From a virus, in the IMG/VR virus record IMGVR_UViG_3300044630_001179, positions 1-63,750 of that record: a stretch of DNA of 63,750 bases; one strand, 5' to 3'. The notes under the pieces are model-generated. The model was not told where the DNA came from and ran no database searches. It was given only the letters and a program-made list of their open reading frames with translations. Below are positions 2,181-48,900 of the stretch, piece by piece. Numbering within the stretch: the stretch's first letter is position 1; every line of letters starts with the position of its first letter. The position numbers were made by a program, and so were the translations under genes.

Positions 2181-2642
2181 ATGAAAACAACACCAAATGA
2201 TTACCTAAAATTTTGGAGAGTCATCAGGTATTACTACAAGGCTAAGTTCCAATTAAGCCAAGCTGACCTCGACATAATCTTGTTTCTTTACTCGGAAGGG
2301 TACTTTGGGAAGGAGAAGTTTGACGAGTTTGCGGAACTCGTGAGTTGGGAAGTAAACAGGTTTAAAAGACTCCACAAAGATGGGTGGATTGAAACCTTCA
2401 GAAGACGTGGACCCAATGGCAGAGCACTTTACCAACTCAGCTACAAGGCAACTCGTCTTGTGCTTGACATTTACAGAAAATTAAGTGGGGAAGAAATCCC
2501 GACAAGTATCTCTGCAAACCCTATGTTCTTGAAGAATGTCTCCTACAACGATAAGGTTTACAGAAATATGATTATCGAGATGAATGCTTATCAAAAAGCC
2601 AATAAGTACAGGAAGCCTACAGCTGAAAAAGCTGAAGACTAA
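2181..2642 (+). CDS. Winged-helix (MarR-like) DNA-binding protein
   Basis: This 153-aa protein is probably a transcriptional regulator. Residues about 25-90 read as a winged helix-turn-helix: a QADLDIILFLYSEGYF helix, a second helix (EFAELVSWEVNRFKRLHKDG) and a beta wing (WIETFRRRGPNGRALYQLSY). The order matches MarR-type or phage wHTH proteins. It is the only plus-strand gene in this part of the genome, sits beside overlapping divergent promoters, and its 3' end overlaps the 3' end of groES by 4 bases. It may control the divergent small-protein/lysis operon or its own promoter. The regulatory target is inferred from position. Confidence 0.65.
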   Translation: MKTTPNDYLKFWRVIRYYYKAKFQLSQADLDIILFLYSEGYFGKEKFDEFAELVSWEVNRFKRLHKDGWIETFRRRGPNGRALYQLSYKATRLVLDIYRKLSGEEIPTSISANPMFLKNVSYNDKVYRNMIIEMNAYQKANKYRKPTAEKAED

Positions 2643-2896
2643 AGTACAACTACTACATCACGCTCGGATATTACAGTGTACTGCGTATCATCTATCAGCA
2701 TCGTGAAGCTATGAGCCTTGTCATAGTACAACTCATCGCTTTCGTCAATAACACTTACGTCAGTGCCGGGTGCTATCACCAATGCACGCTTATAGCGTAG
2801 CTGATTGGTATCCTCCCCTGACAATATCAGACCACTCTCTGTGGTTACTGTCTCTTGGATGTCTTTTACGATAATGTATTTGCCTATTGGTTTCAT
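2639..2896 (-). CDS. groES: GroES-like co-chaperonin
   Basis: This 85-aa protein is a short version of the 10-kDa co-chaperonin that caps the GroEL cage (bacterial GroES is about 95 aa). It shows the N-terminal strand (MKPIGKYIIVKD), a mobile-loop equivalent (TTESGLILSGED) that would contact GroEL, a GTDV turn and a C-terminal strand (ISERDVVVVL). The roof-loop region is short. It is located 4 bases downstream of the phage groEL, as in bacterial groESL but in reverse order. Phage co-chaperonins such as T4 gp31 are needed for capsid protein folding; the same role is likely here but not shown. Confidence 0.85.
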   Translation of the reverse strand: MKPIGKYIIVKDIQETVTTESGLILSGEDTNQLRYKRALVIAPGTDVSVIDESDELYYDKAHSFTMLIDDTQYTVISERDVVVVL

Positions 2897-2900
2897 TTTC

Positions 2901-4517
2901 TTATTGTTGTTGCTCGTATGTACGAGCCATTGTGATAATTGCGTTTGTACTTAGAATGGTTACAGCTACACTTACTGCGTTCTGCAAGGCTGACCTTGTA
3001 ACTTTCAATGGGTCAATAACACCCATCTCAATCAAGTCACCCATCTGACCGGTCTTAAGATTGTATCCGTGACCAACCGGAGTGCTATCCTTGTAGACAT
3101 CGCTTGGTTTAAGTCCTGCGTTAGCAAGTATCTGTTGGAATGGAGCCATAAGTGCGTTACGAACAATGCTTAATGCTGCGTCATACTCAGCACTATTACT
3201 TGGTTCACCCAACTCAGCACTCTCATCAAGTAACGCTTTGCCGGCACCCGGTAAAATTCCTTCCTCAAGTGCGGAACGTACTGCACAAACAGCGTCATCA
3301 ACCCTGTCGTACAACTCTTTTTGCTCCAAGTCAGTCTGACCACCTACAAATATTACACCAATGCCACCTGTAAGTGACGCTATTCTCTCTAATAAGAAGT
3401 CTTTGTCACCTTTCTTAGTCGCTTCTTTGTGTGACTCCCACAACTGCTTCACTCTTTCCTCAACCAAAGCCTCATCAGCCTTAGCTGTACTGCGAATAAT
3501 GACAGTTTTGTCCTTGCTCACAATAACTTTACCTGCGTGACCTAAGTCTCCGTAGTTGATATGGCTCAAATCATCACCTGTCTTCTCACTATAGTAGGTT
3601 GCTCCTACACTAATCGCAATATCTTGCATCAACTCGTGCTGCTTGTAGCCAAAGTTTGGTGGAGGCACTGCCACCACTTTCAAATTACCCTTAACTGAGT
3701 TCGCTGCAAGTGTGTTCACCACATTACTATTACACGGAGAGATGATAAGTAGCTTCTTGCCTTCACTAATGATTGGTTTCAACACATTCTCAATCTGAAG
3801 TATGTTCGCTATCTCCATATCACAAACCAACACCATCACGTCCTCAAACACGCACTCATCTTTTTTGGCATCATTGATAAACATCGGGCTCAAATACCCT
3901 CTGTCAAATTTCAAACCCTTAGTTGTCTCAGCATATGTGTCTGCCGTTTGGCTTCTCTCAACTGTTACAATACCCGTCTTACCAACGTCCTTATAAACTT
4001 CTGCAATAATGCGACCAATCTCTCTGTCGTTGTTGGCTGAGATAGCCGCCACGTCCAATAACATAGTTGAGCTGACCTTTTTCGCTTTACGTCTTAACTT
4101 GTCCACTACCTTACCCGTTATGTCCACCATATGTCTTAGCACCTCAGTCCTGTTCATATCATCTTTGATATGCTCAAGTCCTCCAAGTACCAATCCTTCT
4201 GTAAGAACAATAGCCGTGGTCGTACCATCACCTGCCGAAGTAGCTGTCTTGTCTGCTGCCTCCTTCATCATCTTAACCGCAAGGTTCTCGCTTGGGTCAA
4301 TTAGGTCAATTGACTTGGCAACTGTTACACCATCCTTAGTAACTGTGATGCCGTGTGTGTGATGCGGACTCTCAATGAGTACAGTGTTACCACTTGGTCC
4401 AAGAGTTGACTTAACAGCCTTAGACATCTTAACTACACCACTGATTAATTTCTTTCTGCCGTCCGAACCGAACTGCAAATCCTTGGGTGAGTACCCAATT
4501 CCTGACGTTTCTACCAT
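2901..4517 (-). CDS. groEL: GroEL-like chaperonin (60 kDa, phage-encoded)
   Basis: This is a 538-aa group I chaperonin, close to the usual 540-550 aa. Visible hallmarks are the nucleotide-binding TLGPSG and TKDGVTVAK segments, the ATPase GDGTTT motif near residue 90 with its catalytic Asp, and the C-terminal equatorial region with GAGKALLDE (GAGK replacing the usual GGG) and a late NAGL segment. The C-terminus ends in EQQQ and lacks the GGM tail of bacterial GroEL. I chose ATG at 4517: the longer TTG start at 4547 lies inside the -7 promoter box and cannot be transcribed from it. It pairs with the groES gene 4 bases downstream, and probably folds the large capsid or fibre proteins. Confidence 0.93.
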   Translation of the reverse strand: MVETSGIGYSPKDLQFGSDGRKKLISGVVKMSKAVKSTLGPSGNTVLIESPHHTHGITVTKDGVTVAKSIDLIDPSENLAVKMMKEAADKTATSAGDGTTTAIVLTEGLVLGGLEHIKDDMNRTEVLRHMVDITGKVVDKLRRKAKKVSSTMLLDVAAISANNDREIGRIIAEVYKDVGKTGIVTVERSQTADTYAETTKGLKFDRGYLSPMFINDAKKDECVFEDVMVLVCDMEIANILQIENVLKPIISEGKKLLIISPCNSNVVNTLAANSVKGNLKVVAVPPPNFGYKQHELMQDIAISVGATYYSEKTGDDLSHINYGDLGHAGKVIVSKDKTVIIRSTAKADEALVEERVKQLWESHKEATKKGDKDFLLERIASLTGGIGVIFVGGQTDLEQKELYDRVDDAVCAVRSALEEGILPGAGKALLDESAELGEPSNSAEYDAALSIVRNALMAPFQQILANAGLKPSDVYKDSTPVGHGYNLKTGQMGDLIEMGVIDPLKVTRSALQNAVSVAVTILSTNAIITMARTYEQQQ

Positions 4518-4544
4518 TTGATTATAATTTAATTTACTGTTGTA

Positions 4545-4552
4545 CAAATATA
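4545..4552 (-). promoter_or_regulatory. -7 promoter box for groEL-groES
   Basis: TATATTTG on the minus strand matches the Bacteroidota -7 consensus exactly, about 27 bases before the chosen groEL start. No clear TTTG element is seen at the expected -33 distance, so it may depend on an activator. Confidence 0.55.
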
Positions 4553-6490: not shown

Positions 6491-7357
6491 ATGCAAACAG
6501 GTATCATTTACACAACCACAGGTCAAAGAGACAGAGGCGAGGTTTCAAATTACCACAGGAAGCCGGAGCCCCTATTTTTAAACAAAACTAAGCACGCTGT
6601 TGACGTGGCAGGCTTAAAGAAGGCAGAGCAAAGAACTGCCATCAAATTTGAGGGCGGAGATTATGAGGCGAAATTTACCATCGGTTTTGAGGTTGAGAAA
6701 AACCAATTGTCACGTAACGCAGTGCGTGAGTATGAGCTTTTTTGTGGCTTCGAGCGTGACGGGTCGTGCGGTTATGAGGCAGTCACTCACGTGCTCCCAT
6801 TACTTCCGGCAGGCAAATGGCGTACAAAGGTTTTTGACCTTATGCACAAAGCCGAAAAAATCATTGATGACAGATACAGCCCGTCTGACAGACGTTGTGG
6901 CGGTCACATTACCATTGCTGCCGATGGCTTCACAGGTGAGGAATTAAGGGCTGCCGTTCGCAAAAATGCAGGCATCATTTACGCCCTATTTCGCAACAGG
7001 CTTGAAAACAGATATTGCAATGCAAACAACAGGATGCAGAATATATCCGGTGACAGGTATCAGGTGAGCCTTGCAAAAGGCAAATGCTTAGAGTTTCGCT
7101 TGCCATCACGTTTTGAGTCTGTTAAGCAAATGATGAGAAGATACGAGTTATTTTATGAGATGGTTAATTTCAGCGTAAGCAAGCCGAACGGGTCACACGA
7201 GGCGTTTTTAAAGAGCATTACGCCCATCGTCTTATCAATGTACAATGGTGACACAGACAAAGCAAATGAGGTTCTGAGACTTGCAAAGCTATTCAGAGCG
7301 TACATCCTTGATGGCACAATACATCCTGACATTGCGAGATATTTAAGAGGATATTAG
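6491..7357 (+). CDS. Amidoligase-family enzyme (glutamine synthetase-like fold)
   Basis: This 288-aa protein is likely an ATP-dependent COOH-NH2 ligase of the amidoligase family (Amidoligase_2 type), which joins a carboxylate to an amine. Motifs in order: a metal-binding GFEVEK near residue 64, FERDGSCGYEAVTHVLPL near 90-107, DRRCGGHI near 136, and a late KCLEFRLPSRF. These match the acidic and His/Arg positions expected of the family. Published analysis of amidoligases (Iyer and colleagues) reported neighbourhoods with class II glutamine amidotransferase and gamma-glutamylcyclotransferase domains, and exactly that fusion is encoded at 8817-9917. Substrate unknown: peptide tagging or cell-wall/peptide modification are possibilities. 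Confidence 0.8.
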   Translation: MQTGIIYTTTGQRDRGEVSNYHRKPEPLFLNKTKHAVDVAGLKKAEQRTAIKFEGGDYEAKFTIGFEVEKNQLSRNAVREYELFCGFERDGSCGYEAVTHVLPLLPAGKWRTKVFDLMHKAEKIIDDRYSPSDRRCGGHITIAADGFTGEELRAAVRKNAGIIYALFRNRLENRYCNANNRMQNISGDRYQVSLAKGKCLEFRLPSRFESVKQMMRRYELFYEMVNFSVSKPNGSHEAFLKSITPIVLSMYNGDTDKANEVLRLAKLFRAYILDGTIHPDIARYLRGY

Positions 7358-7370
7358 GATACAATGGGGG

Positions 7371-7386
7371 GTGTCTTCAAAGACAC
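7371..7386 (+). repeat. 16-bp palindrome copy 3, hairpin before ribozyme 1
   Basis: Exact GTGTCTTCAAAGACAC, extended by flanking GGGG and TCCC that can pair across it. Stem III of hammerhead ribozyme 1 begins 4 bases after the end of this palindrome. Self-cleavage would leave this hairpin near the 3' end of the amidoligase transcript. Confidence 0.95.
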
Positions 7387-7390
7387 TCCC

Positions 7391-7443
7391 TGCTGTCGCA
7401 GGGTGTTTGCCCTGCCTGACGAGTCCAACAGGACGAAACAGCA
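7391..7443 (+). ncRNA. Hammerhead ribozyme 1, type III
   Basis: All elements of a hammerhead are present. Stem III pairs TGCTGT (7391-7396) with ACAGCA (7438-7443). The cleavage base is C at 7397 (GUC). Stem I is GCAGGG/CCCTGC with a TGTTTG loop. The core CTGACGA is at 7416-7422, stem II is GTCC/GGAC with an AACA loop, and GAAA is at 7435-7438. Cleavage should occur after 7397, leaving the ribozyme core on the downstream RNA with a 5'-OH. The next ATG is at 7465. Confidence 0.93.
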
Positions 7444-7464
7444 ACCACAAAAAAATCAAATCAA

Positions 7465-7575
7465 ATGGGAACACACATCACAATTTTAGAGGCAGTAATT
7501 ATCAGCCTGACATCCATCGTTTTATGGGTGTTTGTTAAAACTTTAATTCAACATTATAAACCATCAAAAAAGTAA
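7465..7575 (+). CDS. 36-aa single-pass membrane peptide
   Basis: The frame begins MGTHITILEAVIISLTSIVL and continues as one hydrophobic helix (about residues 7-27) followed by a short basic tail (QHYKPSKK). The start is preceded by the AATCAAATCAA leader typical of this genome. It is the first gene downstream of hammerhead ribozyme 1 and lies 3 bases before the next gene. It could be a small host-takeover or lysis-timing peptide; the function is unknown. Confidence 0.65.
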   Translation: MGTHITILEAVIISLTSIVLWVFVKTLIQHYKPSKK

Positions 7576-7578
7576 GTT

Positions 7579-8118
7579 ATGTACATCAAAACAGCCGAAA
7601 AAGTACGTGTAGAAAATTACCCGTATTCATTTACACTTCGCACTACATTGTTCGACACAATGGAGTTCAACCCTAAAAAAGGTTACAGACACGTGACCCA
7701 AACAATCAACCCAAAGACAGGGCGTGAGAACAACCCAAAGAAATCGACATACTATCCGCTCCTTGTTCGGTACAGAAACGAAGAGGGGCACATAAAAAGT
7801 ATGGCTTTTGACTTCAATGGGCGTGATGAGTTGAACAGGGGCGTTCAGTTTATAGCAGAGAACTTCGACCTATTCAGTGCCGATGAGGTTCAGTATTTGT
7901 ACTCAATCCTATTCACGATGACAGCCGTTGATATGAAGGCGACAGTGATATATGGAGGGGCGAAATTTGACGACCTTAAACCTATTTATGACCCGTTTAT
8001 CGACACTATCAAGCAGGGCTTGACAGGTGGGGGAAATGTACTGACAGGTTTGAGATTAGATGCGGAGGCAATAGAGAAGGCAAAGCCTGAGGGGTACAAT
8101 CCATTCAGAGTTAGGTAG
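7579..8118 (+). CDS. Early protein of unknown function
   Basis: This is a 179-aa soluble protein. The N-terminal half is beta-rich and basic (YPYSFTLRTTLFDTMEFNPK, then GYRHVTQTINPKTG), followed by a helical section (FIAENFDLFSADEVQYLYSI) and a Gly-rich region near residue 152. No domain is recognised. It sits between the amidoligase and the GAT-II/GGCT gene, so it could supply or receive the product of those enzymes, but that is only a neighbourhood argument. It ends 10 bases before palindrome copy 4. Confidence 0.65.
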   Translation: MYIKTAEKVRVENYPYSFTLRTTLFDTMEFNPKKGYRHVTQTINPKTGRENNPKKSTYYPLLVRYRNEEGHIKSMAFDFNGRDELNRGVQFIAENFDLFSADEVQYLYSILFTMTAVDMKATVIYGGAKFDDLKPIYDPFIDTIKQGLTGGGNVLTGLRLDAEAIEKAKPEGYNPFRVR

Positions 8119-8127
8119 CAAGTGGGG

Positions 8128-8143
8128 GTGTCTTCAAAGACAC
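8128..8143 (+). repeat. 16-bp palindrome copy 4, hairpin before ribozyme 2
   Basis: Exact GTGTCTTCAAAGACAC flanked by GGGG and TCC. The TCC at 8144-8146 is also the outer part of stem III of ribozyme 2, so the extended hairpin and the ribozyme stem compete for the same bases. Confidence 0.95.
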
Positions 8144-8195
8144 TCCGTCCCTGAGTGAGTTGCTCAGGCTGATGAGTCCCAAAGGACGAAACGGA
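8144..8195 (+). ncRNA. Hammerhead ribozyme 2, type III
   Basis: Stem III pairs TCCGT (8144-8148) with ACGGA (8191-8195). The cleavage base is C at 8149. Stem I is CCTGAG/CTCAGG with a TGAGTTG loop. The core CTGATGA is at 8169-8175, stem II is GTCC/GGAC with a CAAA loop, and GAAA is at 8188-8191. Every invariant core base is present. The ATG of the 64-aa gene follows at 8217. Confidence 0.94.
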
Positions 8196-8216
8196 AACCA
8201 CTTAAATTAAATTCAA

Positions 8217-8411
8217 ATGACACAAGAACAAATGACCATCGAAAGACAGCGTAATGAAACCATTCAGGACGTAATCGACAGACTACTTTACCTGCCGGCA
8301 GACAAGTTGGAAGAGTACAAGTACTACCTCAATGTATTAGTGGACGTGTATCCCATTGATATGAAAATTGAGGACGGAATCAGAATCTATCACGTATCAA
8401 AAAGAAAGTAA
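8217..8411 (+). CDS. Small acidic early protein
   Basis: This is a 64-aa protein that starts MTQEQMTIERQRNETIQDVI and has a helical, charged N-terminal half and a short beta-like end (IRIYHVSKRK). Its first six residues are the same as those of the 111-aa protein at 17783, perhaps by chance. It is translated from the RNA left by hammerhead ribozyme 2. No family is known. Confidence 0.6.
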   Translation: MTQEQMTIERQRNETIQDVIDRLLYLPADKLEEYKYYLNVLVDVYPIDMKIEDGIRIYHVSKRK

Positions 8412-8412
8412 A

Positions 8413-8538
8413 ATGAAAATCTTATCAGTAATCTTAATCGTATCGTTCCTAACTTCTTGCAGTGTTGAGTACAAAATTGCTCACTACAAAAGACCAAACA
8501 GAAAACAGACCTGCATCGTTGGGAAGAGACCATTCTAA
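8413..8538 (+). CDS. Small predicted lipoprotein
   Basis: This is a 41-aa frame beginning MKILSVILIVSFLTSCSVEY. The hydrophobic signal ends in a lipobox (LTSC) typical of bacterial lipoproteins; the mature part is about 26 residues and basic. The start is 2 bases after the upstream stop. Small early lipoproteins in phages sometimes block superinfection, but no specific evidence exists here. Confidence 0.6.
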   Translation: MKILSVILIVSFLTSCSVEYKIAHYKRPNRKQTCIVGKRPF

Positions 8539-8550
8539 AATCAAATCAAT

Positions 8551-8712
8551 ATGGAAAGTCAACACTATTTCAAAGTATTCTACGGACAAGTATGCGTATG
8601 GTCAGTAGTCGCCCACACTAAGTGGGAGGCTATTGACAAGGCGTACTACAAATTCATTGGGGATAGACCCCATTTAGATAGGGCAAAGTTCAAGGCAAAG
8701 AAGGTTTATTAG
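8551..8712 (+). CDS. Small early protein, unknown
   Basis: This 53-aa frame starts MESQHYFKVFYGQVCVWSVV and has a basic C-terminus (RAKFKAKKVY). It follows the AATCAAATCAAT leader 12 bases after the lipoprotein gene. The WEAIDKAYYKF segment resembles a short amphipathic helix. The function is unknown. Confidence 0.55.
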   Translation: MESQHYFKVFYGQVCVWSVVAHTKWEAIDKAYYKFIGDRPHLDRAKFKAKKVY

Positions 8713-8720
8713 AAAATAAA

Positions 8721-8752
8721 TTTGGAGATGTCTAATTTATGTCGTATCTTCG
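8721..8752 (+). promoter_or_regulatory. Possible promoter before the GAT-II/GGCT gene
   Basis: TTTG at 8721-8724, 20 bases, then TATCTTCG at 8745-8752, one base off the TAnnTTTG consensus. It would start transcription just upstream of palindrome copy 5. Confidence 0.35.
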
Positions 8753-8780
8753 TTCAATATCAGTTCAATAACAGGGTTCT

Positions 8781-8796
8781 GTGTCTTCAAAGACAC
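8781..8796 (+). repeat. 16-bp palindrome copy 5 (5' leader, no ribozyme)
   Basis: Exact GTGTCTTCAAAGACAC, 21 bases before the ATG at 8817, with outer GGG (8773-8775) and CCC (8799-8801) able to pair. Unlike copies 3, 4 and 6 it is not followed by a hammerhead core. Confidence 0.95.
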
Positions 8797-8816
8797 TGCC
8801 CACAAATCAAATCAGT

Positions 8817-9917
8817 ATGTGTGTAATCATTATCAAGCAGACAGGGAAGCACGTTCCTCAGGAGGTTGCAAAGACCTCAGCAAGAATCAATCCTCACGGG
8901 TTGGGAATTATTTGGCTCGACACGTTCGAGGTTACCTATCACAAATCGTCCGAATACGCAGTATTGGACACAAAGCGACCATTCATCGCTCATTTTAGAT
9001 ATGCTACCATTGGTGCTATCAACAAGGAGAATACGCATCCATTCAGATGCGGGAGTAACAAACAGGAGTGGCTTATGATGAACGGTACTATCAGAGCACT
9101 TGGCAATTTCAAGAAGAGTGATTCAAGAGTATTGGCAGAGAACTTGGGAGAGATACCACGTCATAAATGGAAGAAGGAATTGGAGCAGTATGAGTGCAGG
9201 TTCGTTACGATTAACACGCACAGCAGAACGTATCAGGTGTATAACAAAGACTTATGGATTCAGAAGGATGGCGTGTGGTACAGCAAGGACAATGTACTTG
9301 AAGATAATTTAGTTGCGGTGTATGGCACGTTGAAGAAGGGTTACAGCAATTACAACCATTACCTTACCGGCTCAAAGCACTTGGGTAAGGGTGAGACCAA
9401 AGATAAGTATCCGCTTGTCATTCAGGGTTTGCCATACTTGATTGAGAAGAAGGGAGTAGGGCACAATGTGGAGGTGGACGTGTTCAAGGTGAGCGGTGGA
9501 ATATTGGCACAGCTTGACAGGTTGGAAGGTCATCCTAATTGGTACAGACGTAAGCAGATTGAGATTCAGATGAAGGACAAGACACTTACCTGTTGGATAT
9601 ATTTTAATATCAGAGAGAACGAGAAGGGACACGAGTTGCATAAGACATACACTCAGTTGCCTAACAAAGTGAAGTGGTACGAGGAGGAGGATGAGATAGA
9701 GAGCGAGAGGGTATTTAGTAAGTATGCTGACAGGCAGTTGAGTTTGCTCGATATATTCGAGGATGATTGTGAAGATTGTGGTTTTGATATAGTAAATGAG
9801 AAGCCCATTTGTGTAGATTGTTTTCACGACTTGGAACACGATGGCTTTGCGAACTACCATTGTAGTGGTTGCGATGGTTGGTTTGCTGAGGATGAGGTAC
9901 TGCGATTTAAACCTTAA
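8817..9917 (+). CDS. Class II glutamine amidotransferase fused to gamma-glutamylcyclotransferase-like domain
   Basis: This is a 366-aa multidomain protein. I chose ATG 8817 because it gives MCVIII, placing the catalytic Cys at position 2 as needed in Ntn-type class II glutamine amidotransferases; the longer GTG start lies in the palindrome. Residues 1 to about 165 form the GAT-II-like domain (AHFRYATIG and NGTIRALGNF segments). Residues about 167-275 form a GGCT/AIG2-like domain with the YGTLKKG substrate loop and the acidic LDRLEGHPNWYRR motif. The last 55 residues have CEDCG, CVDC and CSGC pairs, probably zinc-binding. With the amidoligase it suggests a linked amide-bond making and breaking pathway. 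Confidence 0.82.
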   Translation: MCVIIIKQTGKHVPQEVAKTSARINPHGLGIIWLDTFEVTYHKSSEYAVLDTKRPFIAHFRYATIGAINKENTHPFRCGSNKQEWLMMNGTIRALGNFKKSDSRVLAENLGEIPRHKWKKELEQYECRFVTINTHSRTYQVYNKDLWIQKDGVWYSKDNVLEDNLVAVYGTLKKGYSNYNHYLTGSKHLGKGETKDKYPLVIQGLPYLIEKKGVGHNVEVDVFKVSGGILAQLDRLEGHPNWYRRKQIEIQMKDKTLTCWIYFNIRENEKGHELHKTYTQLPNKVKWYEEEDEIESERVFSKYADRQLSLLDIFEDDCEDCGFDIVNEKPICVDCFHDLEHDGFANYHCSGCDGWFAEDEVLRFKP

Positions 9918-9932
9918 CCTCAGTAGTGGGTG

Positions 9933-9948
9933 GTGTCTTCAAAGACAC
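9933..9948 (+). repeat. 16-bp palindrome copy 6, hairpin before ribozyme 3
   Basis: Exact GTGTCTTCAAAGACAC with outer GGG (9928-9930) and CCC (9951-9953) that can pair across a small internal loop. Ribozyme 3 begins at 9954. Confidence 0.95.
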
Positions 9949-9953
9949 TGCCC

Positions 9954-10004
9954 TCCGTCCCGGGATGTGCGTCCCGGCTGATGAGCTCGAAAGAGCGAAA
10001 CGGA
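9954..10004 (+). ncRNA. Hammerhead ribozyme 3, type III
   Basis: Stem III pairs TCCGT (9954-9958) with ACGGA (10000-10004). The cleavage base is C at 9959. Stem I is CCGGGA/TCCCGG with a TGTGCG loop. The core CTGATGA is at 9978-9984, stem II is GCTC/GAGC with a GAAA loop, and GAAA is at 9997-10000. Stem I and II sequences differ from ribozymes 1 and 2 but pairing is kept, which is covariation evidence that the fold is under selection. The next ATG is at 10020. Confidence 0.94.
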
Positions 10005-10019
10005 AACCATCTAAACAAA

Positions 10020-10169
10020 ATGTCTATGAATTATTTTATCTTAGTCCTGAGTTGTTTTGTAAGTGCAATGGCAGGATGTTTTATCGGAGCGTATGTAACT
10101 TACAGGTCAATGAAAGTAATCGTGAGACGTAAGGTCGCACAAATTTTAAAAAATCAAAATCAAAAGTAA
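10020..10169 (+). CDS. Small membrane protein
   Basis: This 49-aa frame (MSMNYFILVLSCFVSAMAGC...) has one hydrophobic helix (residues about 4-27) followed by a basic cytoplasmic-type tail (RSMKVIVRRKVAQILKNQNQK). It is placed 16 bases after the last stem of hammerhead ribozyme 3, so I use the internal ATG and not the longer frame that runs back through the ribozyme. The stop abuts the next start at 10170. The function is unknown. Confidence 0.65.
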   Translation: MSMNYFILVLSCFVSAMAGCFIGAYVTYRSMKVIVRRKVAQILKNQNQK

Positions 10170-13644: not shown

Positions 13645-13660
13645 GTGTCTTCAAAGACAC
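13645..13660 (+). repeat. 16-bp palindrome copy 7 (before tRNA-like element)
   Basis: Exact GTGTCTTCAAAGACAC ending 4 bases before the tRNA-like acceptor stem. Confidence 0.95.
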
Positions 13661-13664
13661 AAAG

Positions 13665-13755
13665 AGTCAGGTCGCTTAAGAGATGCATAAGTCAGTGCAT
13701 ACAGGTAAAGCGTAGGGATACTATGATGCAGGTTCGACTCCTGTCCTGACTCCCA
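13665..13755 (+). tRNA. tRNA-like element, class II size, degenerate middle
   Basis: The 3' half is a textbook tRNA end: T-arm GCAGG-TTCGACT-CCTGT (13728-13744) followed by CCTGACT, one base, and an encoded CCA (13753-13755). The 5' end AGTCAGG (13665-13671) pairs fully with CCTGACT. The total is 91 nt, like a class II tRNA, and GTAG-GGATA-CTAT could be a long variable arm. However, the D-loop lacks GG and I cannot draw a standard 5-bp anticodon stem with U33. It may be a decayed tRNA, an atypical one, or a tRNA mimic used as an RNase P processing signal. Confidence 0.5.
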
Positions 13756-16806: not shown

Positions 16807-17562
16807 ATGATTGAATTAATAAATGGAGAATCATTAGAGGTTATGTCAAAGATGGACAATGAATCTATTGATATGATATTTTGTGATTTGCCATACGGGA
16901 CAACGAGAAACGATTGGGATGCAATAATACCATTAGGGGAACTTTGGGAGCAATACAACAGAATAATTAAAGAAAACGGAGCTATAGTTTTAACCGCAGC
17001 AAATCCTTTTGATAAAATATTAGCCTGTTCAAATATGAAGGACTACAAGTACGATTGGATTTGGCACAAAAATAAAGCAACGGGTCACTTAAATTCTAAG
17101 AAACTTCCATTGAAGGCACACGAATATGTTTTAATCTTTTATAAAAAGCCGCCAACATATAATCCGCAATACACAATGGGACATAAACCTATGAATAAAG
17201 TTTCTCCAAAGGGCATACCGCATCCTGAAAAATTAAGGAATTACGGTCACATAAATTTCCAAAATGGTAATGAAGGCGGTTCGACAATTAGATTGCCAAG
17301 GACTGTGTTGGATATACCTGTGATAAATAATGATAATCCATTAAAGTTTCACCCCACACAAAAGCCGGTAGAACTTGCAGAGTATTTTATCAAGACGTAT
17401 TCAAATGAGAATGATACCATTTTAGATAACTGTATGGGTTCAGGCTCTACCGGGATTGCTTGTATAAATACAAGACGCAATTTTATTGGGATAGAAATAA
17501 ATGAAGAGTATTTTGTCAAAGCAAAAAATTGGATTGAAAACGAAAAAAACAAAAGAATATGA
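16807..17562 (+). CDS. DNA methyltransferase (N6-adenine or N4-cytosine)
   Basis: This 251-aa protein is of the beta-type amino-methyltransferase order: catalytic CDLPYGTTRNDWD (DPPY-like, here DLPY) near residue 27, a target-recognition region in the middle, FHPTQKPVEL near 177, and the SAM-binding DNCMGSGSTGIAC near 205. No restriction endonuclease partner is seen next to it, so it looks like an orphan phage methylase used to protect the genome or alter regulation. It overlaps the following small gene by 4 bases. Confidence 0.9.
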   Translation: MIELINGESLEVMSKMDNESIDMIFCDLPYGTTRNDWDAIIPLGELWEQYNRIIKENGAIVLTAANPFDKILACSNMKDYKYDWIWHKNKATGHLNSKKLPLKAHEYVLIFYKKPPTYNPQYTMGHKPMNKVSPKGIPHPEKLRNYGHINFQNGNEGGSTIRLPRTVLDIPVINNDNPLKFHPTQKPVELAEYFIKTYSNENDTILDNCMGSGSTGIACINTRRNFIGIEINEEYFVKAKNWIENEKNKRI

Positions 17563-18118: not shown

Positions 18119-19572
18119 TTGAAAGACTACCGGCATACAGCAACAAATCAATGTGGGAATACTGCGAGATTCTAAAACGTGTAATCACTCAGTTTAAGGA
18201 AGTAAAGGTTGGTAGAGGCAAACAGGTAGAGGTAATCAAGGTTCCTAAATACAGTACTGAGAAGCACCTTGTAGACAATATTGTCAGCAGTTGTGAGTAC
18301 TATAAAAACTTATACGAGATGGAGGACAAGCAAGGATTTAATTACAGGGACTATCAGATTGACATTATTGAGAAAGGTCAGCAGATACTTTCAAAGTATG
18401 GGTTCCTGTATTTGGCAATGGAGGTACGTACCGGCAAGACCCTAACAAGTCTCGGGATAGCTGAGCGTGTGCACGCAAAGAATGTTTTGTTTGTTACCAA
18501 GAAGAAAGCCCTGAGCACCATATCAGACGACTACTCAATGCTTAGCCCTTCGTATTATATGCAGGTCATCAACTATGAAAGCCTCCACACCGTGATGAAT
18601 GAGCAAAGATGGGACTTAATTATTTGTGACGAGGCACACGGAATGGGAGCGTTCCCTAAGGCGAGTGGACGTGCAGAGTTGGTTGCACAAGTGATTAAGA
18701 AATGCAGACCAATGGTAATGCTACTTAGTGGTACACCAACGCCTGAGTCGTACTCACAGATGTACCATCAGGTATATGCAATACCTAACAACCCGTTCAA
18801 AGAGTTTAAAAACTTCTATAGGTTCTGCGACAAGTACGTTAAAATAAAACAGCGTAAGATTAACGGACTATTCGTTAATGATTATAGCGGTGGACTTGAT
18901 ACCATCCTCAAAGAGATGGAGCCTTATACTATTAACTACACGCAGCAGGAGGCAGGTTTTATGGCTGAGACCAAGGAAGAGATATTGGAGGTAGAGATGA
19001 AGCCATCGACTTATGCGATGATAAAAAAATTAAAGAAGGAATTGGTGATAGAAGGAAAAGAAGAAATAATTTTGGCAGACACTCCGGTTAAGTTGATGAT
19101 GAAGGTGCATCAGTTGAGTAGCGGCACGATTAAATTTGAGAGCGGCAATAGTATGATACTTGACCTAAGCAAGGCTGAGTTTATCAAAGAGCAGTTTGAA
19201 GGATGTAAGATTGGAATCTTCTACAAGTTCAAGGAAGAGTACAACGCACTCAAGCAGGTATTTGGTGATGACTTAACCTCTGAGCTAAGTGTCTTTGAAG
19301 ACACCAATAAGAACATAGCATTACAGATTGTAAGCGGACGTGAGGGAATCAGTTTAAGACAGGCTGAGTACTTAGTTTACTACAACATTGATTTTAGTGC
19401 TACGAGTTATTGGCAGAGCAAAGACCGGATGACCACAAAGGAACGCCTCGAGAATCAAGTATATTGGATTTTCTCTAAGGGTGGTATTGAACACGACATC
19501 TACAAGGCTGTCACAAAGAAGAAAGACTACACTGTTAACCATTTTAAAAAAGATTTTTATGACAACGACTGA
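18115..19572 (+). CDS. Superfamily 2 DEAH/SNF2-like helicase
   Basis: This 485-aa protein couples ATP hydrolysis to movement on nucleic acid. Motifs in order: Walker A VRTGKTLTSLG near residue 103 (GKT), motif Ia region with NVLFVTKKKALSTI, motif II CDEAHGM (DEAH), motif III LLSGTPTPES, and a C-terminal RecA fold with QIVSGREGISLRQAEYLVYY (motif V-like) and QSKDRMTTKER (motif VI). The layout resembles phage UvsW or SNF2-like helicases used in replication or recombination. Palindrome copy 8 lies within it, read as the VFEDT segment. Confidence 0.9.
   Translation: MIERLPAYSNKSMWEYCEILKRVITQFKEVKVGRGKQVEVIKVPKYSTEKHLVDNIVSSCEYYKNLYEMEDKQGFNYRDYQIDIIEKGQQILSKYGFLYLAMEVRTGKTLTSLGIAERVHAKNVLFVTKKKALSTISDDYSMLSPSYYMQVINYESLHTVMNEQRWDLIICDEAHGMGAFPKASGRAELVAQVIKKCRPMVMLLSGTPTPESYSQMYHQVYAIPNNPFKEFKNFYRFCDKYVKIKQRKINGLFVNDYSGGLDTILKEMEPYTINYTQQEAGFMAETKEEILEVEMKPSTYAMIKKLKKELVIEGKEEIILADTPVKLMMKVHQLSSGTIKFESGNSMILDLSKAEFIKEQFEGCKIGIFYKFKEEYNALKQVFGDDLTSELSVFEDTNKNIALQIVSGREGISLRQAEYLVYYNIDFSATSYWQSKDRMTTKERLENQVYWIFSKGGIEHDIYKAVTKKKDYTVNHFKKDFYDND
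19289..19304 (-). repeat. 16-bp palindrome copy 8 (inside helicase CDS)
   Basis: GTGTCTTTGAAGACAC on the plus strand, the reverse orientation of the palindrome relative to the gene that carries it. It encodes VFEDT in the helicase frame. This is the only coding copy whose CA-centred orientation is opposite to transcription. Confidence 0.95.
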
Positions 19573-41591: not shown

Positions 41592-41617
41592 AAGGAGAGT
41601 GTCTTTGAAGACACCCT
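41592..41617 (-). terminator. Terminator after the major capsid gene, built on the 16-bp palindrome
   Basis: On the minus strand GGAGG-GTGTCTTCAAAGACAC-TCTCC forms a stem of about 12 bp (one G-T pair) and is followed by a run of Ts. Palindrome copy 10 (41599-41614) is the core of the stem, so the genome-wide palindrome serves here as a normal terminator. Confidence 0.8.
41599..41614 (-). repeat. 16-bp palindrome copy 10 (in MCP terminator)
   Basis: Exact GTGTCTTCAAAGACAC on the minus strand, 26 bases after the MCP stop codon, at the heart of the terminator hairpin. Confidence 0.95.
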
Positions 41618-41639: not shown

Positions 41640-43058
41640 TTATCCGTAACGGAATAATACGAAGTTGTTAGCACCCAAGGTACATACGCAACGCTCAGAA
41701 AGGAAGTTAACCTCCATTGCATCCAAGTCGCTTGTAGCAGCACCACCGGCAGAACCTGTAATCCAAGTTTTGTATCTGCGGTCTTCAGCTTCAGAAGCAC
41801 GGTAACGAACGTGTAAGAAAGGACGCTTAGCGTTCTTGCCCATAATTTGGTCGTACACTGAAGTAGAACCTGCAGGAACCATCAAACCTGTGATAGTACC
41901 GGTTGCAGTTGCAGCAGTAGTATTTAAACCACCACGCATTGTTGGGTCATTTAGGTATTTCCAATCAGACTTGTAGAAGTCATAACCTCTACGGAAACCT
42001 GTGAAACCTAAGTTCAACGCCATATCAACATCGTTATCGAAAAGACCGAAAGAAGCTGATTGAGCAACACCACCTGAAGTGTAGCCGTTCAATGTAGCTA
42101 ACATATTGTCAATATCGAAGCTCAATCCACGATTTACGAATACAACGTTCTCTTCGATAGCACCTTGCTTGTCAAGACGAGAAACGATTGAATCCCAATC
42201 AGAAAGAGTTGTTGGAGTACCACCACCCCAAACGTTACCACGGTTGTTTACAACGTAGAAGATACCTTCAGAACCAATGTAACCTGCAGTAGCAGCACCT
42301 GAAGAAGATGCAGCCGGAACAGCTTCAATCATTGAAGTCTCTAAGTAATCTTCAAAACGTAAACGAGTTTCGTGCTCACTCTTTAAATACCAAAGGTATC
42401 CTGTAGCACCATTCTCTGTAGTTACTTCTACCCAACCGATTTGAGCCATATCAGAACCGTTAACCGCATACTTATCTTTGATGATAATAGGGTTGTTGCT
42501 GTAGATGTCATCTTCAGATTCTAAAGAACCAACCATTCCGTTAGTACCTTTTTTGAACTCAGAACCGTAAATGAATACAGTACATTGAGTAGAAACTGCG
42601 AATGCTTGACCTGCAGTCTCATAGTAAGCTACTGTGAAAGTAGTTGCTGAAGGAACTGCTGTAACGATAGCCTTGTTGAAAACACCTGATGTATTGTTTT
42701 GAATCATCAAAGTTTGTCCAACACGGATAGCGATGTAAGTAACACCACTGTCAGCTACAGTAAAAGTTGCGGTTGCCGCACCTGCTGCTGCTGCTGAAGT
42801 ACAGTTTGTGTACTTAATGTGTAAACGTCCTTGTTCTGCCCATTTGATTTGGTCAGAGTTAGACGGCATCTCTGCTCCTACCATACGTAAGAAAGATGCG
42901 ATTGTTCTATTACCATAACGCTCAAATTCTTTCTCGTATGTATCAGGAAGATACTGATTCAAGAAGTTGAAGTTGGTAATGTAGTTTGTCTGTAACGCCA
43001 CCTGCTCAGCACTTGGCTGTAATTGGTAGGTGGGGTTATTCAATAAAGCACTTGCCAT
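41640..43058 (-). CDS. Major capsid protein
   Basis: This 472-aa protein is called major capsid protein by position: portal, scaffold-like, then this gene, then a strong terminator, and a highly biased codon and GNAT-free composition rich in A, G, T and V. An inserted beta domain (residues about 75-160) fits the additional domain seen in many HK97-fold capsid proteins. Segments such as FLNQYLPDTYEKEFERYGNR (N-terminal arm) and FLHVRYRASEAEDRRYKTWI (near C-terminus) are compatible with the HK97 fold. No fold search was possible. Confidence 0.8.
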   Translation of the reverse strand: MASALLNNPTYQLQPSAEQVALQTNYITNFNFLNQYLPDTYEKEFERYGNRTIASFLRMVGAEMPSNSDQIKWAEQGRLHIKYTNCTSAAAAGAATATFTVADSGVTYIAIRVGQTLMIQNNTSGVFNKAIVTAVPSATTFTVAYYETAGQAFAVSTQCTVFIYGSEFKKGTNGMVGSLESEDDIYSNNPIIIKDKYAVNGSDMAQIGWVEVTTENGATGYLWYLKSEHETRLRFEDYLETSMIEAVPAASSSGAATAGYIGSEGIFYVVNNRGNVWGGGTPTTLSDWDSIVSRLDKQGAIEENVVFVNRGLSFDIDNMLATLNGYTSGGVAQSASFGLFDNDVDMALNLGFTGFRRGYDFYKSDWKYLNDPTMRGGLNTTAATATGTITGLMVPAGSTSVYDQIMGKNAKRPFLHVRYRASEAEDRRYKTWITGSAGGAATSDLDAMEVNFLSERCVCTLGANNFVLFRYG

Positions 43059-46654: not shown

Positions 46655-48900
46655 CTAATCAATTGACTTGTTGTTCCTTCGTTTTTATATTTAGCGAAGT
46701 TAATAATTAATTTCGATTCTTTTTTCTCCGGTATGTATAGATGCTTCTGATTAGCCATAATGCATAATCCCGAACTAATGGAGGCATCGAACCTTGTTCT
46801 GTCATTAATGTCAAACTTAGCCCAATCCTCAAGCGTTCTTGTAAATGGCATTGTGCCCATTTCTTCAGGGTCTCTATACTTTGCTTCCAAGTCTAATCCA
46901 ACATACTTCTCAATATAAGATTCAATAGCGGAGGCGTGTGCTTGCTTAACATCTTCTGATGAGTTTGGAATACCTCCTAACTCACGCTCAGTCTTTGTTA
47001 ATTTAGCCAACTGCTTATCCGGTCTATTAATAGAAAATCCTCTGTATCCTCTATTTTTAATATGGTATAAAAGCCTTGGTTTATTATTCTCCACTAAGAT
47101 AGGCATTCCGTAGAATATACAAGCCATTAGTACTTCTTCAAAGAATATTTCTGCCGTTTGTGGACGAGCAATGTACTCTAAAAAAAATTGATTGGTTGGT
47201 GCGTCATCCATATGAAACTTAGTCATACCGTGAAGTGCACCATTAGAACCACGTCCACCTACTACAGCAGAGATGTCATAAGAGTCACAACCAAATGAAC
47301 CAAGATGCTCATTACCCGGATACTTGATTCCGTTGCGTATGTGCACATTATTTTGCATATGCTTAGGAGGTGCCCAACTTATTAGGAACCTACCTCGTGT
47401 ATCAGGAGTCCATATCACCTCGCTATCTTTAATACCATCCTTCCACGAAAATGCCCCACGAGTAAGGTATTGCCCCTTAATCATTGAGTCGTTATAATCA
47501 ATCTGCTGATATAGTTTAGTTAAATTGAATAAGGCTTGCTTGCTCTCGTCTCTAAAAGCGTGAGACTCTGTTCTTGGAAACTGACGATAAAATTCGTTTA
47601 GTGCGTCAGCATCACTATTTAAAGACTCAACCTCCGCTTCCCAATAGTCAATGGCTCCGTTTTTAATCCAATTACCATCCACACCCATAATAGGCTCCTC
47701 AGGTTTGCGAAACACAGGATGACCATATCTGTCAATGAATCCTTCCATATTCCACTCCATTGGAATAAATATGGCATATAAACCACTTTTAGTTTGCCCG
47801 TTGGCGTTACGTACTTTTACGTTTGAGTCCTCGTAAATATCTTTATAGTTCTGTCCCCCTTTGCTTAATGCATTGGACGTTGAACCCATCATACATTTAC
47901 CGATAATCTTACTACCCAAGCGAAGACAGGTTTTGGTTACACGCCAATTCTCTTTAATGTTTACAGGCTTGGTCCACTTGGCAGACTCATCGTGTGCCAA
48001 AAATAATAGCTTCTCTCCATCGTATGAGTTGTCCTCAGTATTTTTCCAATCTATTGATGTATCAAGTCCATCGACATCATTGTCGTCAGTCTCATACATA
48101 TTCTTCTTAGTAATCTTTGCTGCCGGAACCCTATACGCCAACTCAGTTTTTGGCTTGTCCATACCATCCATAATCGGTTTGAAAAAGAATGGTAGGCGGC
48201 TATTGATTGGTACAACCTTATCGGTGAACATCTTCTTAGCATCCGCACCTGTCTTAGATAAGATACCTATACGTGCGTCACGAGCGAGCGTACCTATGTT
48301 CACGCACTCTGATGATGACATAAACGAGAACCCTGAACGTCTAATTTTTAGGTATATCATACCAAATGACCTCGGGTCAGCACGACAGGCTTCCCAAAAT
48401 ATCCAATAGATTCTATTGGCTTCACGGAAGTCAGGGTATCCTATGTCAATACTTGACCATTGCAAGTACATATAATGAGAGCCGGTTATGTAAGTCTTTA
48501 CTCCATTGTTCATAAACCAACATCCTTGCTCACGGTAGTCAAACTCCTGCTCAATATAATCTACCCAACGGTCTTTAAATTCTTTTGGCTTTTCGTTCCA
48601 TTGAAATATGGATTGTATCTTGGCTAACTCACGTGGAAGGTCTTGACGTTCCCAATATTGTTCAGCCTTAGTGGAGTGTCTTTGAAGACACTTTTCAGGA
48701 GCAAGCGGAAGAGCAATAATTAATCCTTCTATCTCTACTATCTGTCCTATCTGTCCGGTCTTTGAAATTACAATAACATCGTATTGGTCGTTATACCCAT
48801 ACAGCCACGACCTCACCCTATTTTTGTTAGAGATAACGGCAGCCGGTATGTGATTATCGACTATACGGCATAGATTATTGTTTTGACCTTCTTTCTGCAA
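46651..48900 (-). CDS. terL: Terminase large subunit
   Basis: This 749-aa DNA-packaging motor has an ATPase region with IRRSGFSFMSSSE in place of a standard Walker A (the usual GKS lysine is Phe), a Walker B KLLFLAHDESAKW (acidic pair) and a coupling motif GSTSNALSKGG. A nuclease-like section starts at FGCDSYDISAVVGGRGSNGA with Asp. This pattern is like crAss-type terminases. Palindrome copy 11 lies in the N-terminal part and is read in another frame (CLQRHS). The upstream 95-aa gene is probably its small subunit. Confidence 0.9.
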   Translation of the reverse strand: MQKEGQNNNLCRIVDNHIPAAVISNKNRVRSWLYGYNDQYDVIVISKTGQIGQIVEIEGLIIALPLAPEKCLQRHSTKAEQYWERQDLPRELAKIQSIFQWNEKPKEFKDRWVDYIEQEFDYREQGCWFMNNGVKTYITGSHYMYLQWSSIDIGYPDFREANRIYWIFWEACRADPRSFGMIYLKIRRSGFSFMSSSECVNIGTLARDARIGILSKTGADAKKMFTDKVVPINSRLPFFFKPIMDGMDKPKTELAYRVPAAKITKKNMYETDDNDVDGLDTSIDWKNTEDNSYDGEKLLFLAHDESAKWTKPVNIKENWRVTKTCLRLGSKIIGKCMMGSTSNALSKGGQNYKDIYEDSNVKVRNANGQTKSGLYAIFIPMEWNMEGFIDRYGHPVFRKPEEPIMGVDGNWIKNGAIDYWEAEVESLNSDADALNEFYRQFPRTESHAFRDESKQALFNLTKLYQQIDYNDSMIKGQYLTRGAFSWKDGIKDSEVIWTPDTRGRFLISWAPPKHMQNNVHIRNGIKYPGNEHLGSFGCDSYDISAVVGGRGSNGALHGMTKFHMDDAPTNQFFLEYIARPQTAEIFFEEVLMACIFYGMPILVENNKPRLLYHIKNRGYRGFSINRPDKQLAKLTKTERELGGIPNSSEDVKQAHASAIESYIEKYVGLDLEAKYRDPEEMGTMPFTRTLEDWAKFDINDRTRFDASISSGLCIMANQKHLYIPEKKESKLIINFAKYKNEGTTSQLIR
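48676..48691 (-). repeat. 16-bp palindrome copy 11 (inside terL)
   Basis: Reads GTGTCTTCAAAGACAC on the coding strand but in a different frame from copies 1 and 9 (translated CLQRHS). Confidence 0.95.

Follow-up and report, generated by a model that had tools for sequence, protein, structure and literature searches.

The Locus and Its Cassettes

The DNA analysed here, in the following called the window, is one IMG/VR virus record (IMGVR_UViG_3300044630_001179) of 63,750 bases. It contains a rightward run of early genes, starting at about 5815, which according to the open reading frames (ORFs) and to family searches encodes a Sak-type annealing protein, an exonuclease, a primase-like protein and a DNA methyltransferase. 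Within this run, three predicted type III hammerhead ribozymes lie in the same direction in 2.6 kb and flank varied genes; each of them is preceded by a hairpin built on the exact palindrome GTGTCTTCAAAGACAC. The unit of hairpin and hammerhead is called a cassette, and the region comprises the following features, all on the + strand.

7366-7390, +: upstream hairpin of cassette 1 (palindrome core 7371-7386 plus GC extension; fold, exact palindrome)
7391-7443, +: hammerhead 1, type III, predicted cut 7397/7398 (RF00008 44.7 bits, structural descriptor, energy model)
7465-7575, +: ORF of 36 amino acids (MGTHITILEAVIISL...), small predicted membrane protein, behind cassette 1 (sequence)
7579-8118, +: ORF of 179 amino acids between cassettes 1 and 2 (no match in family searches)
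8120-8125, +: possible outer helix of cassette 2, 5′ strand AAGUGG, pairing with 8198-8203 (fold)
8125-8146, +: upstream hairpin of cassette 2 (palindrome core 8128-8143; fold, energy model)
8144-8195, +: hammerhead 2, type III, predicted cut 8149/8150 (RF00008 45.1 bits, structural descriptor, energy model)
8198-8203, +: possible outer helix, 3′ strand CCACUU, within the leader of the ORF that starts at 8217 (fold, orthologues)
8217-8411, +: ORF of 64 amino acids (MTQEQMTIERQRNETIQDVIDRLLY...) behind cassette 2 (downstream-ORF clustering)
8781-8796, +: palindrome hairpin with neither hammerhead nor T-run, 22 nucleotides (nt) before the ATG at 8819
8817-9917, +: ORF between cassettes 2 and 3, having a glutamine amidotransferase-like and a gamma-glutamyl cyclotransferase (PF06094) domain
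9928-9953, +: upstream hairpin of cassette 3 (palindrome core 9933-9948 plus extension; fold)
9954-10004, +: hammerhead 3, type III, predicted cut 9959/9960 (RF00008 44.5 bits, structural descriptor, energy model)
10020-10169, +: ORF of 49 amino acids (MSMNYFILVLSCFVSAMAGC..., starting MSMNYFILVLS), small predicted membrane protein, behind cassette 3

All three elements have a complete core, made up of CUGANGA, GAAA and an NUH cleavage triplet, with stems I and II closed by loops and stem III open; stem I has 7-8 base pairs (bp), stem II 4 bp and stem III 4-5 bp. The coordinates, cores and cleavage sites that an earlier note had proposed from the letters of the window were all recovered by sequence and structural descriptor, and the energy model predicts the cuts at the same positions as that note. 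Indeed, RF00008 matches each element over the full length of the model, with E-values between 1.7e-7 and 2.6e-7 in a search of 9.1 kb. The close setting claimed by the note also holds: 4, 0 and 5 nt separate the palindrome from hammerheads 1, 2 and 3, and an ATG stands 21, 21 and 15 nt after them. In the sequence of the three cassettes the predicted cut lies at most 3 nt from stem I and the start codon 15-21 nt past the ribozyme. Cassettes 1 and 3 fold as a hairpin directly followed by the hammerhead, with z-scores of -4.8 and -4.3 for hairpin plus hammerhead.

On the upstream side the cassettes nearly touch the preceding genes. The hairpin of cassette 1 begins 8 nt past the stop codon of the 6491-7357 ORF; more generally, the palindromes start about 9-16 nt, and the longer hairpins about 6-10 nt, past the stop codons at 7357, 8118 and 9917. 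A private promoter would therefore fall inside the upstream gene, and a scan for Bacteroidota-type promoters found none near the cassettes.

Covariation in Related Genomes

IMG/VR was searched for the palindrome followed by CTGANGAG, without requiring the stems, and 53 stretches were obtained; four of these were coincidences in other sequence and were left out. Nearly all of the 53 contain a full hammerhead, followed by an A-rich leader and an ATG. In an alignment of 54 sequences, 99.5% of the cells are paired, against 35-49% in slid controls, and 12 pairs show changes on both sides, with 213 double-change cells compared to 62 after shuffling and 3-27 after sliding. The earlier claim that the stems keep pairing while their sequence differs is thus borne out by strong covariation of stems I-III.

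With a covariance model, the window and 21 of 22 related genomes each yield between one and four hammerheads scoring above 48 bits. Seventeen of the 22 had been picked for a palindrome-hammerhead match, whereas five were picked by the gene for the terminase large subunit (terL) alone, and four of these five have a hammerhead. Matches of this model (R1) at 20-35 bits were not counted as hammerheads, since the model takes in the palindrome columns.

The Hairpin in Related Cassettes and in Other Phages

At orthologous sites the hairpin is kept while its sequence changes (L numbers are our labels). The 64-amino-acid ORF has eight related ORFs that are preceded by cassettes, with seven different hairpin entries; for one of the rows no hairpin was detected. 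Cassettes in front of the IQDVIDRLLY gene family carry the palindrome, its TTTAAA form, a TTCGAA form or TTACACAGCCCTTCGGGGTTGTGTAA, and the MSMNYFILVLS-start gene, which follows a palindrome cassette in the window (10020), is preceded in L136 by a cassette whose hairpin is GCAGGGAATCCCTG. As judged from these sequences, it is therefore a hairpin, and not one particular sequence, that is selected at the position before the hammerhead. Orthologues of the 36-amino-acid ORF in L121, L123, L143 and L144 are likewise preceded by cassettes, according to downstream-ORF clustering.

Two generic type III hammerhead scans and a scan of bacterial and archaeal genomes enlarged the set to at least 262 distinct hammerheads, mostly from IMG/VR; the bacterial and archaeal scan gave mostly chance matches, and 12 hammerheads passed, seven of them with a hairpin. 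The counts given here and in the following sections refer to the matches listed. A hairpin of at least 5 bp, ending at most 6 nt from stem III, precedes 213 of 260 hammerheads, whereas control positions have one in about 18% of cases; placing the test at seven shifted positions gave 28-52 of about 256, and shuffling gave 30-36 of 260. With the palindrome-selected set excluded, it is present in 70/83 and 56/81 in the two generic scans. Hairpin and stem III adjoin without any spacer in 151 of 214 cases (71%), and the tail from hairpin to cut measures 5-8 nt in 190 of 214. The usual order is stop codon, 8 nt, hairpin, ribozyme, 22 nt, ATG: a co-directional ORF ends at most 40 nt upstream in 220/262 (median 8 nt), against 141/693 control positions, while 244 of the 262 have a downstream ORF, whose start lies at a median of 22 nt, and these 244 ORFs form 148 clusters. 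When loci are grouped by shared proteins, the hairpin is in the majority in 33 of 55 groups, against 13 at control positions, and it also predominates in each of the six largest groups with at least three hammerheads (113/120, 37/49, 11/11, 8/8, 4/7 and 3/3). The layout of hairpin, hammerhead and ATG recurs in at least six phage groups without shared proteins.

In L114, L123, L143, L144 and L156 an extra hairpin (e.g., CCGGAGGTTTGAAACCCTCC) was noticed between hammerhead and start codon, a downstream hairpin resembling that of RiboJ.

The hairpin is associated with a gene ending upstream. Of 218 hammerheads with the end of an ORF no more than 75 nt upstream, 188 have it, compared to 11 of the 25 that lack such an ORF (Fisher p = 6e-6, a value that is optimistic, since the sequences are related). 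In L280, L311 and L336, the first hammerhead, located in the leader, has no hairpin, whereas the next one, between genes, does; similarly, the type III hammerhead of the phage elemoA, which precedes the first gene of a leftward operon and adjoins divergent genes, has none. If the hairpin protects a 3′-end, it should be dispensable where there is no upstream gene, and these counts agree with that expectation.

Proposed Mechanism

Sequence, structure, covariation, position, recurrence, the swapping of hairpins and the association of the hairpin with an upstream gene are all observed. The explanation that we prefer, with a probability of roughly 0.68, is that the cassettes cut a polycistronic RNA into an upstream piece ending in a hairpin and a downstream mRNA that begins with a 5′-OH at stem I. 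Three type III hammerheads, each with a hairpin abutting its 5′ side, would be carried by one early polycistronic transcript, and each would cut once after transcription, so that the gene or genes before it and those behind it come to lie on separate RNAs. Given the type III topology, the cut would fall between the upstream hairpin and stem I, so that the upstream RNA would end in a stable hairpin plus a tail. As expected from known hammerhead chemistry, this product would carry a tail of 5-8 nt with a 2′,3′-cyclic phosphate and would resemble the product of an intrinsic terminator, while the downstream mRNA would bear a 5′-OH, the stem-loops of stem I and then stem II at its 5′-end, a short A-rich leader and the start codon. 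A 5′-OH stem-loop end is expected to resist the bacterial mRNA decay pathways that require a 5′ monophosphate. The likeliest function would be to divide an operon among separate mRNAs whose ends are protected and whose abundances are independent, with no additional promoters or terminators; the protection from exonucleases and the effect on expression are what we infer only. A broader proposal, for which we would give slightly less than even odds, is that several unrelated phage groups converged on a compact device of abutting hairpin plus type III hammerhead, set between stop and start codon, that replaces a terminator-promoter pair and in which the hairpin sequence is interchangeable; such a device would be a natural and general form of the engineered ribozyme insulators.

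Several results weigh against this explanation. The check with Infernal and Rfam suggested by the earlier note gave a divided answer: RF00008 matches in full with E of about 2e-7, but the three elements fall 3.4-4.0 bits short of its gathering score of 48.5 and a scan of the whole window at Rfam gathering scores came back empty, and it was the lack of a model hit above threshold that the note had named as speaking against its claim. The gathering score is a database cut-off and no defining property of a hammerhead; scores below it mean that an ordinary annotation run reports none, while E-values and covariation together exclude chance. Secondly, the GenBank record closest by terL (MW202828, from Manatee Spring, 77% identity) lacks the palindrome and, by the structural descriptor, the hammerhead, and its early half has no Rfam match; the cassette is therefore dispensable. 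No hairpin was detected for about 18% of the hammerheads listed; the counts of hairpins are not entirely independent of one another, as two groups account for 125 of 199 loci; and single loci have the hairpin in 28/48 cases against 14/48 in the control. The hairpin effect is thus robust in large groups and moderate in isolated loci, where false hammerheads are likelier. Finally, cassette 2 is predicted mainly without stem III (pair probability about 0.001), and its minimum free energy, -37.2 kcal/mol, lies below the -33.9 kcal/mol that the active fold reaches when the outer helix is included; these figures exclude tertiary contacts.

The Palindrome as a Genome-Wide Element

The window contains 11 copies of the palindrome, against a chance expectation of 0.81 matches at up to three mismatches. 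Eight copies stand without a hammerhead, and several are within ORFs; those outside the cassette region are the following.

846-861, -: further palindrome copy (sequence)
5595, +; 13645, +; 19289, -; 26925, -: other palindrome copies (sequence)
41599-41614, -: palindrome as the hairpin of GGGAGG-palindrome-TCTCCTTTTTTT, an element that resembles an intrinsic terminator and lies downstream of the 41640-43058 ORF
48676-48691, -: palindrome within terL, codons CLQRH

The idea of the palindrome as an accessory of the ribozyme was rejected on account of the eight copies without hammerhead. The modular self-processing cassette in an early operon, as the earlier note had it, is supported by comparison, because the hammerheads covary, sit between co-directional genes and share a layout that recurs elsewhere, and its distribution reaches far beyond a single operon; the palindrome itself proved to be a genome-wide element and no ribozyme accessory as such.

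The copy at 41599 is a GC-rich hairpin followed by a T-run, as in an intrinsic terminator, and many relatives have a T-run terminator hairpin at the end of the gene corresponding to the 41640-43058 ORF, with flanking stem bases that change together. By the same standard the three cassette hairpins are not intrinsic terminators: no T-run directly follows them, and a hammerhead stands there instead. In intergenic regions, 151 copies are oriented along the flanking genes and 14 against them, counts that are not independent. It is plausible that the palindrome is the standard transcript-end hairpin of this phage family and comes to stand at the 3′-end through termination in some places and ribozyme cleavage in others. 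Copies within genes are at odds with this view and point to a second role. In terL (relatives including L017-L092), the same codons are used nearly wherever CLQRH is encoded, whereas flanking codons vary; the near-zero synonymous variation therefore indicates selection at the nucleotide level inside a coding gene.

These features also speak for a different explanation, namely that the palindrome (hairpin GUGUCUUCAAAGACAC) is primarily an RNA or DNA site for a phage or host factor and that the hammerheads joined it secondarily. Most related genomes hold about ten identical copies, the codons in terL are conserved almost exactly, the orientation bias is strong, and the core is invariant in 54 of the 54 aligned cassettes, the exact core having been the selection criterion for that set. 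However, unrelated hairpins replace the palindrome in related cassettes, and a specific factor therefore cannot be required for the cassette. As a primary explanation it is possible but doubtful on balance, although it may be compatible with the cutting of a polycistronic RNA proposed above.

Two copies deserve separate mention. The one at 8781-8796 consists of a hairpin only, and several relatives are alike; it may represent a site before the gain of a ribozyme or after its loss. At 13645-13752 (+), the palindrome is followed about 30 nt on by a degenerate tRNA-like element with an apparent acceptor-like stem (GAGTCAGG/CCTGACTC); RF00005 gives it 19.1 bits, under the cut-off of 29, and ARAGORN reports none.

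Stem III and the Fold of Cassette 2

The hairpin may instead serve chiefly the ribozyme, by stacking coaxially on the short stem III and barring invasion by the upstream mRNA, which would keep cleavage fast irrespective of the upstream gene, with the protection of the upstream end as a by-product. The direct contact of 71% of the hairpins with stem III would suit this role; in addition, stem III averages 4.1 bp where hairpin and upstream gene are both present and 5.7 bp where there is neither (p = 0.01 for hairpin versus none), as a hairpin that supports a short stem III leads one to expect. On the other hand, the frequent lack of the hairpin without an upstream gene would be unexpected unless stem III is longer there, as is partly seen, and, in models without tertiary contacts, pairing of stem III is higher in the hammerhead alone than with the upstream sequence. 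As the chief role of the hairpin, a folding aid appears unlikely; end protection and support of stem III may both be roles of the hairpin.

In cassette 2, the lower stem of the hairpin (8125-8127 with 8144-8146) and stem III (8144-8147) share 8144-8146 and are mutually exclusive in the fold and the energy model. The possible outer helix of AAGUGG and CCACUU can hold both arms and would place the active fold within 3.3 kcal/mol of the best one. Since stem III is mainly absent from the prediction, slow or conditional cutting is possible, and, as far as the model goes, cassette 2 may be a slow, conditional or regulated cutter. The outer-helix pairing segment is present at the orthologous site in L136, L143, L115 and L154, and with changed bases in L123, L144 and L108. 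As a general feature of cassettes the outer helix was rejected (11% versus 9% with shuffled partners). The helix around hairpin and hammerhead is thus confined to one orthologous cassette, where it might keep the two products of cleavage joined or serve as a switch.

That the hammerheads are conditional switches instead of constitutive cutters, at least in cassette 2, is suggested by the exclusive pairing and by the base-changed helix in the three orthologous sites; yet cassettes 1 and 3 have no such conflict, the helix is not enriched generally and its orthologues are few and related, which leaves this explanation quite improbable. Tandem hammerheads might also excise segments that are then ligated into circles, the way retrozymes and viroid-like RNAs are formed. 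This would account for several tandem co-directional copies, but it is scarcely plausible: the cassettes flank different genes instead of repeating one unit directly, neither a reverse transcriptase nor a repeat structure was noticed, and Perreault et al. (2011) sought spliced or circular products of clustered phage hammerheads and found none (PMC3088659). Inactive relics or chance folds, which the Rfam scores below threshold might suggest, are just as hard to believe in view of the E-values, the covariation and the cores maintained in hundreds of sequences.

Comparison with Known Systems

By their core, three stems, open stem III and full-length match, the cassette ribozymes resemble the type III hammerheads of RF00008 (clan CL00010), from which they differ in lower scores, a very short stem II loop and the abutting upstream hairpin. 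The upstream product would, like that of an intrinsic (Rho-independent) terminator, end in a GC-rich hairpin and a tail of about 6 nt; unlike a terminator, the cassettes have no T-run and the end would be made by RNA cleavage. The sTRSV hammerhead, the source of RiboJ, is of type III. RiboJ, an insulator derived from it, raised mRNA about twofold in E. coli, an effect for which the authors propose the terminal hairpin as the reason (PMC6206723). As in RiboJ, the cassettes, to judge by their sequence, place a hammerhead in a 5′ leader and its cleavage would give a hairpin-bearing 5′-end (PMC6206723); RiboJ, however, is synthetic and its added hairpin lies downstream, before the ribosome-binding site, while the cassette hairpin lies upstream and would stay on the other product.

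Perreault et al. (2011) describe clustered prophage hammerheads that are active in vitro and, for A. tumefaciens, also in E. coli, and propose that such clusters cut long phage transcripts (PMC3088659). These clusters share with the window several co-directional hammerheads flanking changing genes; in the passages searched, neither an upstream hairpin nor a consistent layout of stop codon, hairpin, ribozyme and ATG is described (PMC3088659). Phage hammerheads, their clustering and the idea of long-transcript cutting are thus already known from that source. The gut-phage theta ribozymes, which are like the hepatitis delta virus (HDV) ribozyme, are a further case of phage RNA processing by self-cleaving ribozymes, although they belong to another class and are tied to tRNA-based recoding (PMC10879173). 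In the literature searched, neither the abutting hairpin nor the fixed layout nor the link to an upstream gene is described; de la Pena and Garcia-Robles (2010) or Jimenez (2011) may have mentioned the hairpin before.

The question why phages carry hammerhead clusters dates back to Perreault et al. (2011). A hairpin abutting the ribozyme, a tail of 5-8 nt and the dependence on an upstream gene turn a vague idea of transcript processing into a testable model with two ends. If true, this model would explain how separate mRNA levels are set within one phage operon without a protein, and the cassettes would provide natural parts for synthetic biology.

Host and Genome Context

By terminase, the closest cultured phages are the Flavobacterium elemo phages (44% identity) and Cellulophaga phages, so that a flavobacterial host is likely on sequence grounds. 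Among GenBank phages, megablast gave no match for the early region and nucleotide searches with other cassette loci gave nothing useful; for the 179-amino-acid protein (7579-8118), no close IMG/VR relative was confirmed.

Cultured elemo-group Flavobacterium phages (MT497017 elemoA; L490, L491) have a predicted type III hammerhead before a leftward operon, in elemoA at 19084-19138 (-), and these phages, with host strain BAL314, represent a laboratory system. A type I hammerhead candidate was also noticed in them (core in elemoA 17317-17341, -); its stem II reads GAC/GTC in elemoA and GGT/ACC in elemoB, a compensatory change, and is mismatched in elemoF. Lastly, the window encodes a GroEL-like chaperonin followed by an ORF of GroES size (2639-4547, -), and GroEL/GroES are annotated in MW202828 and elemoA as well.

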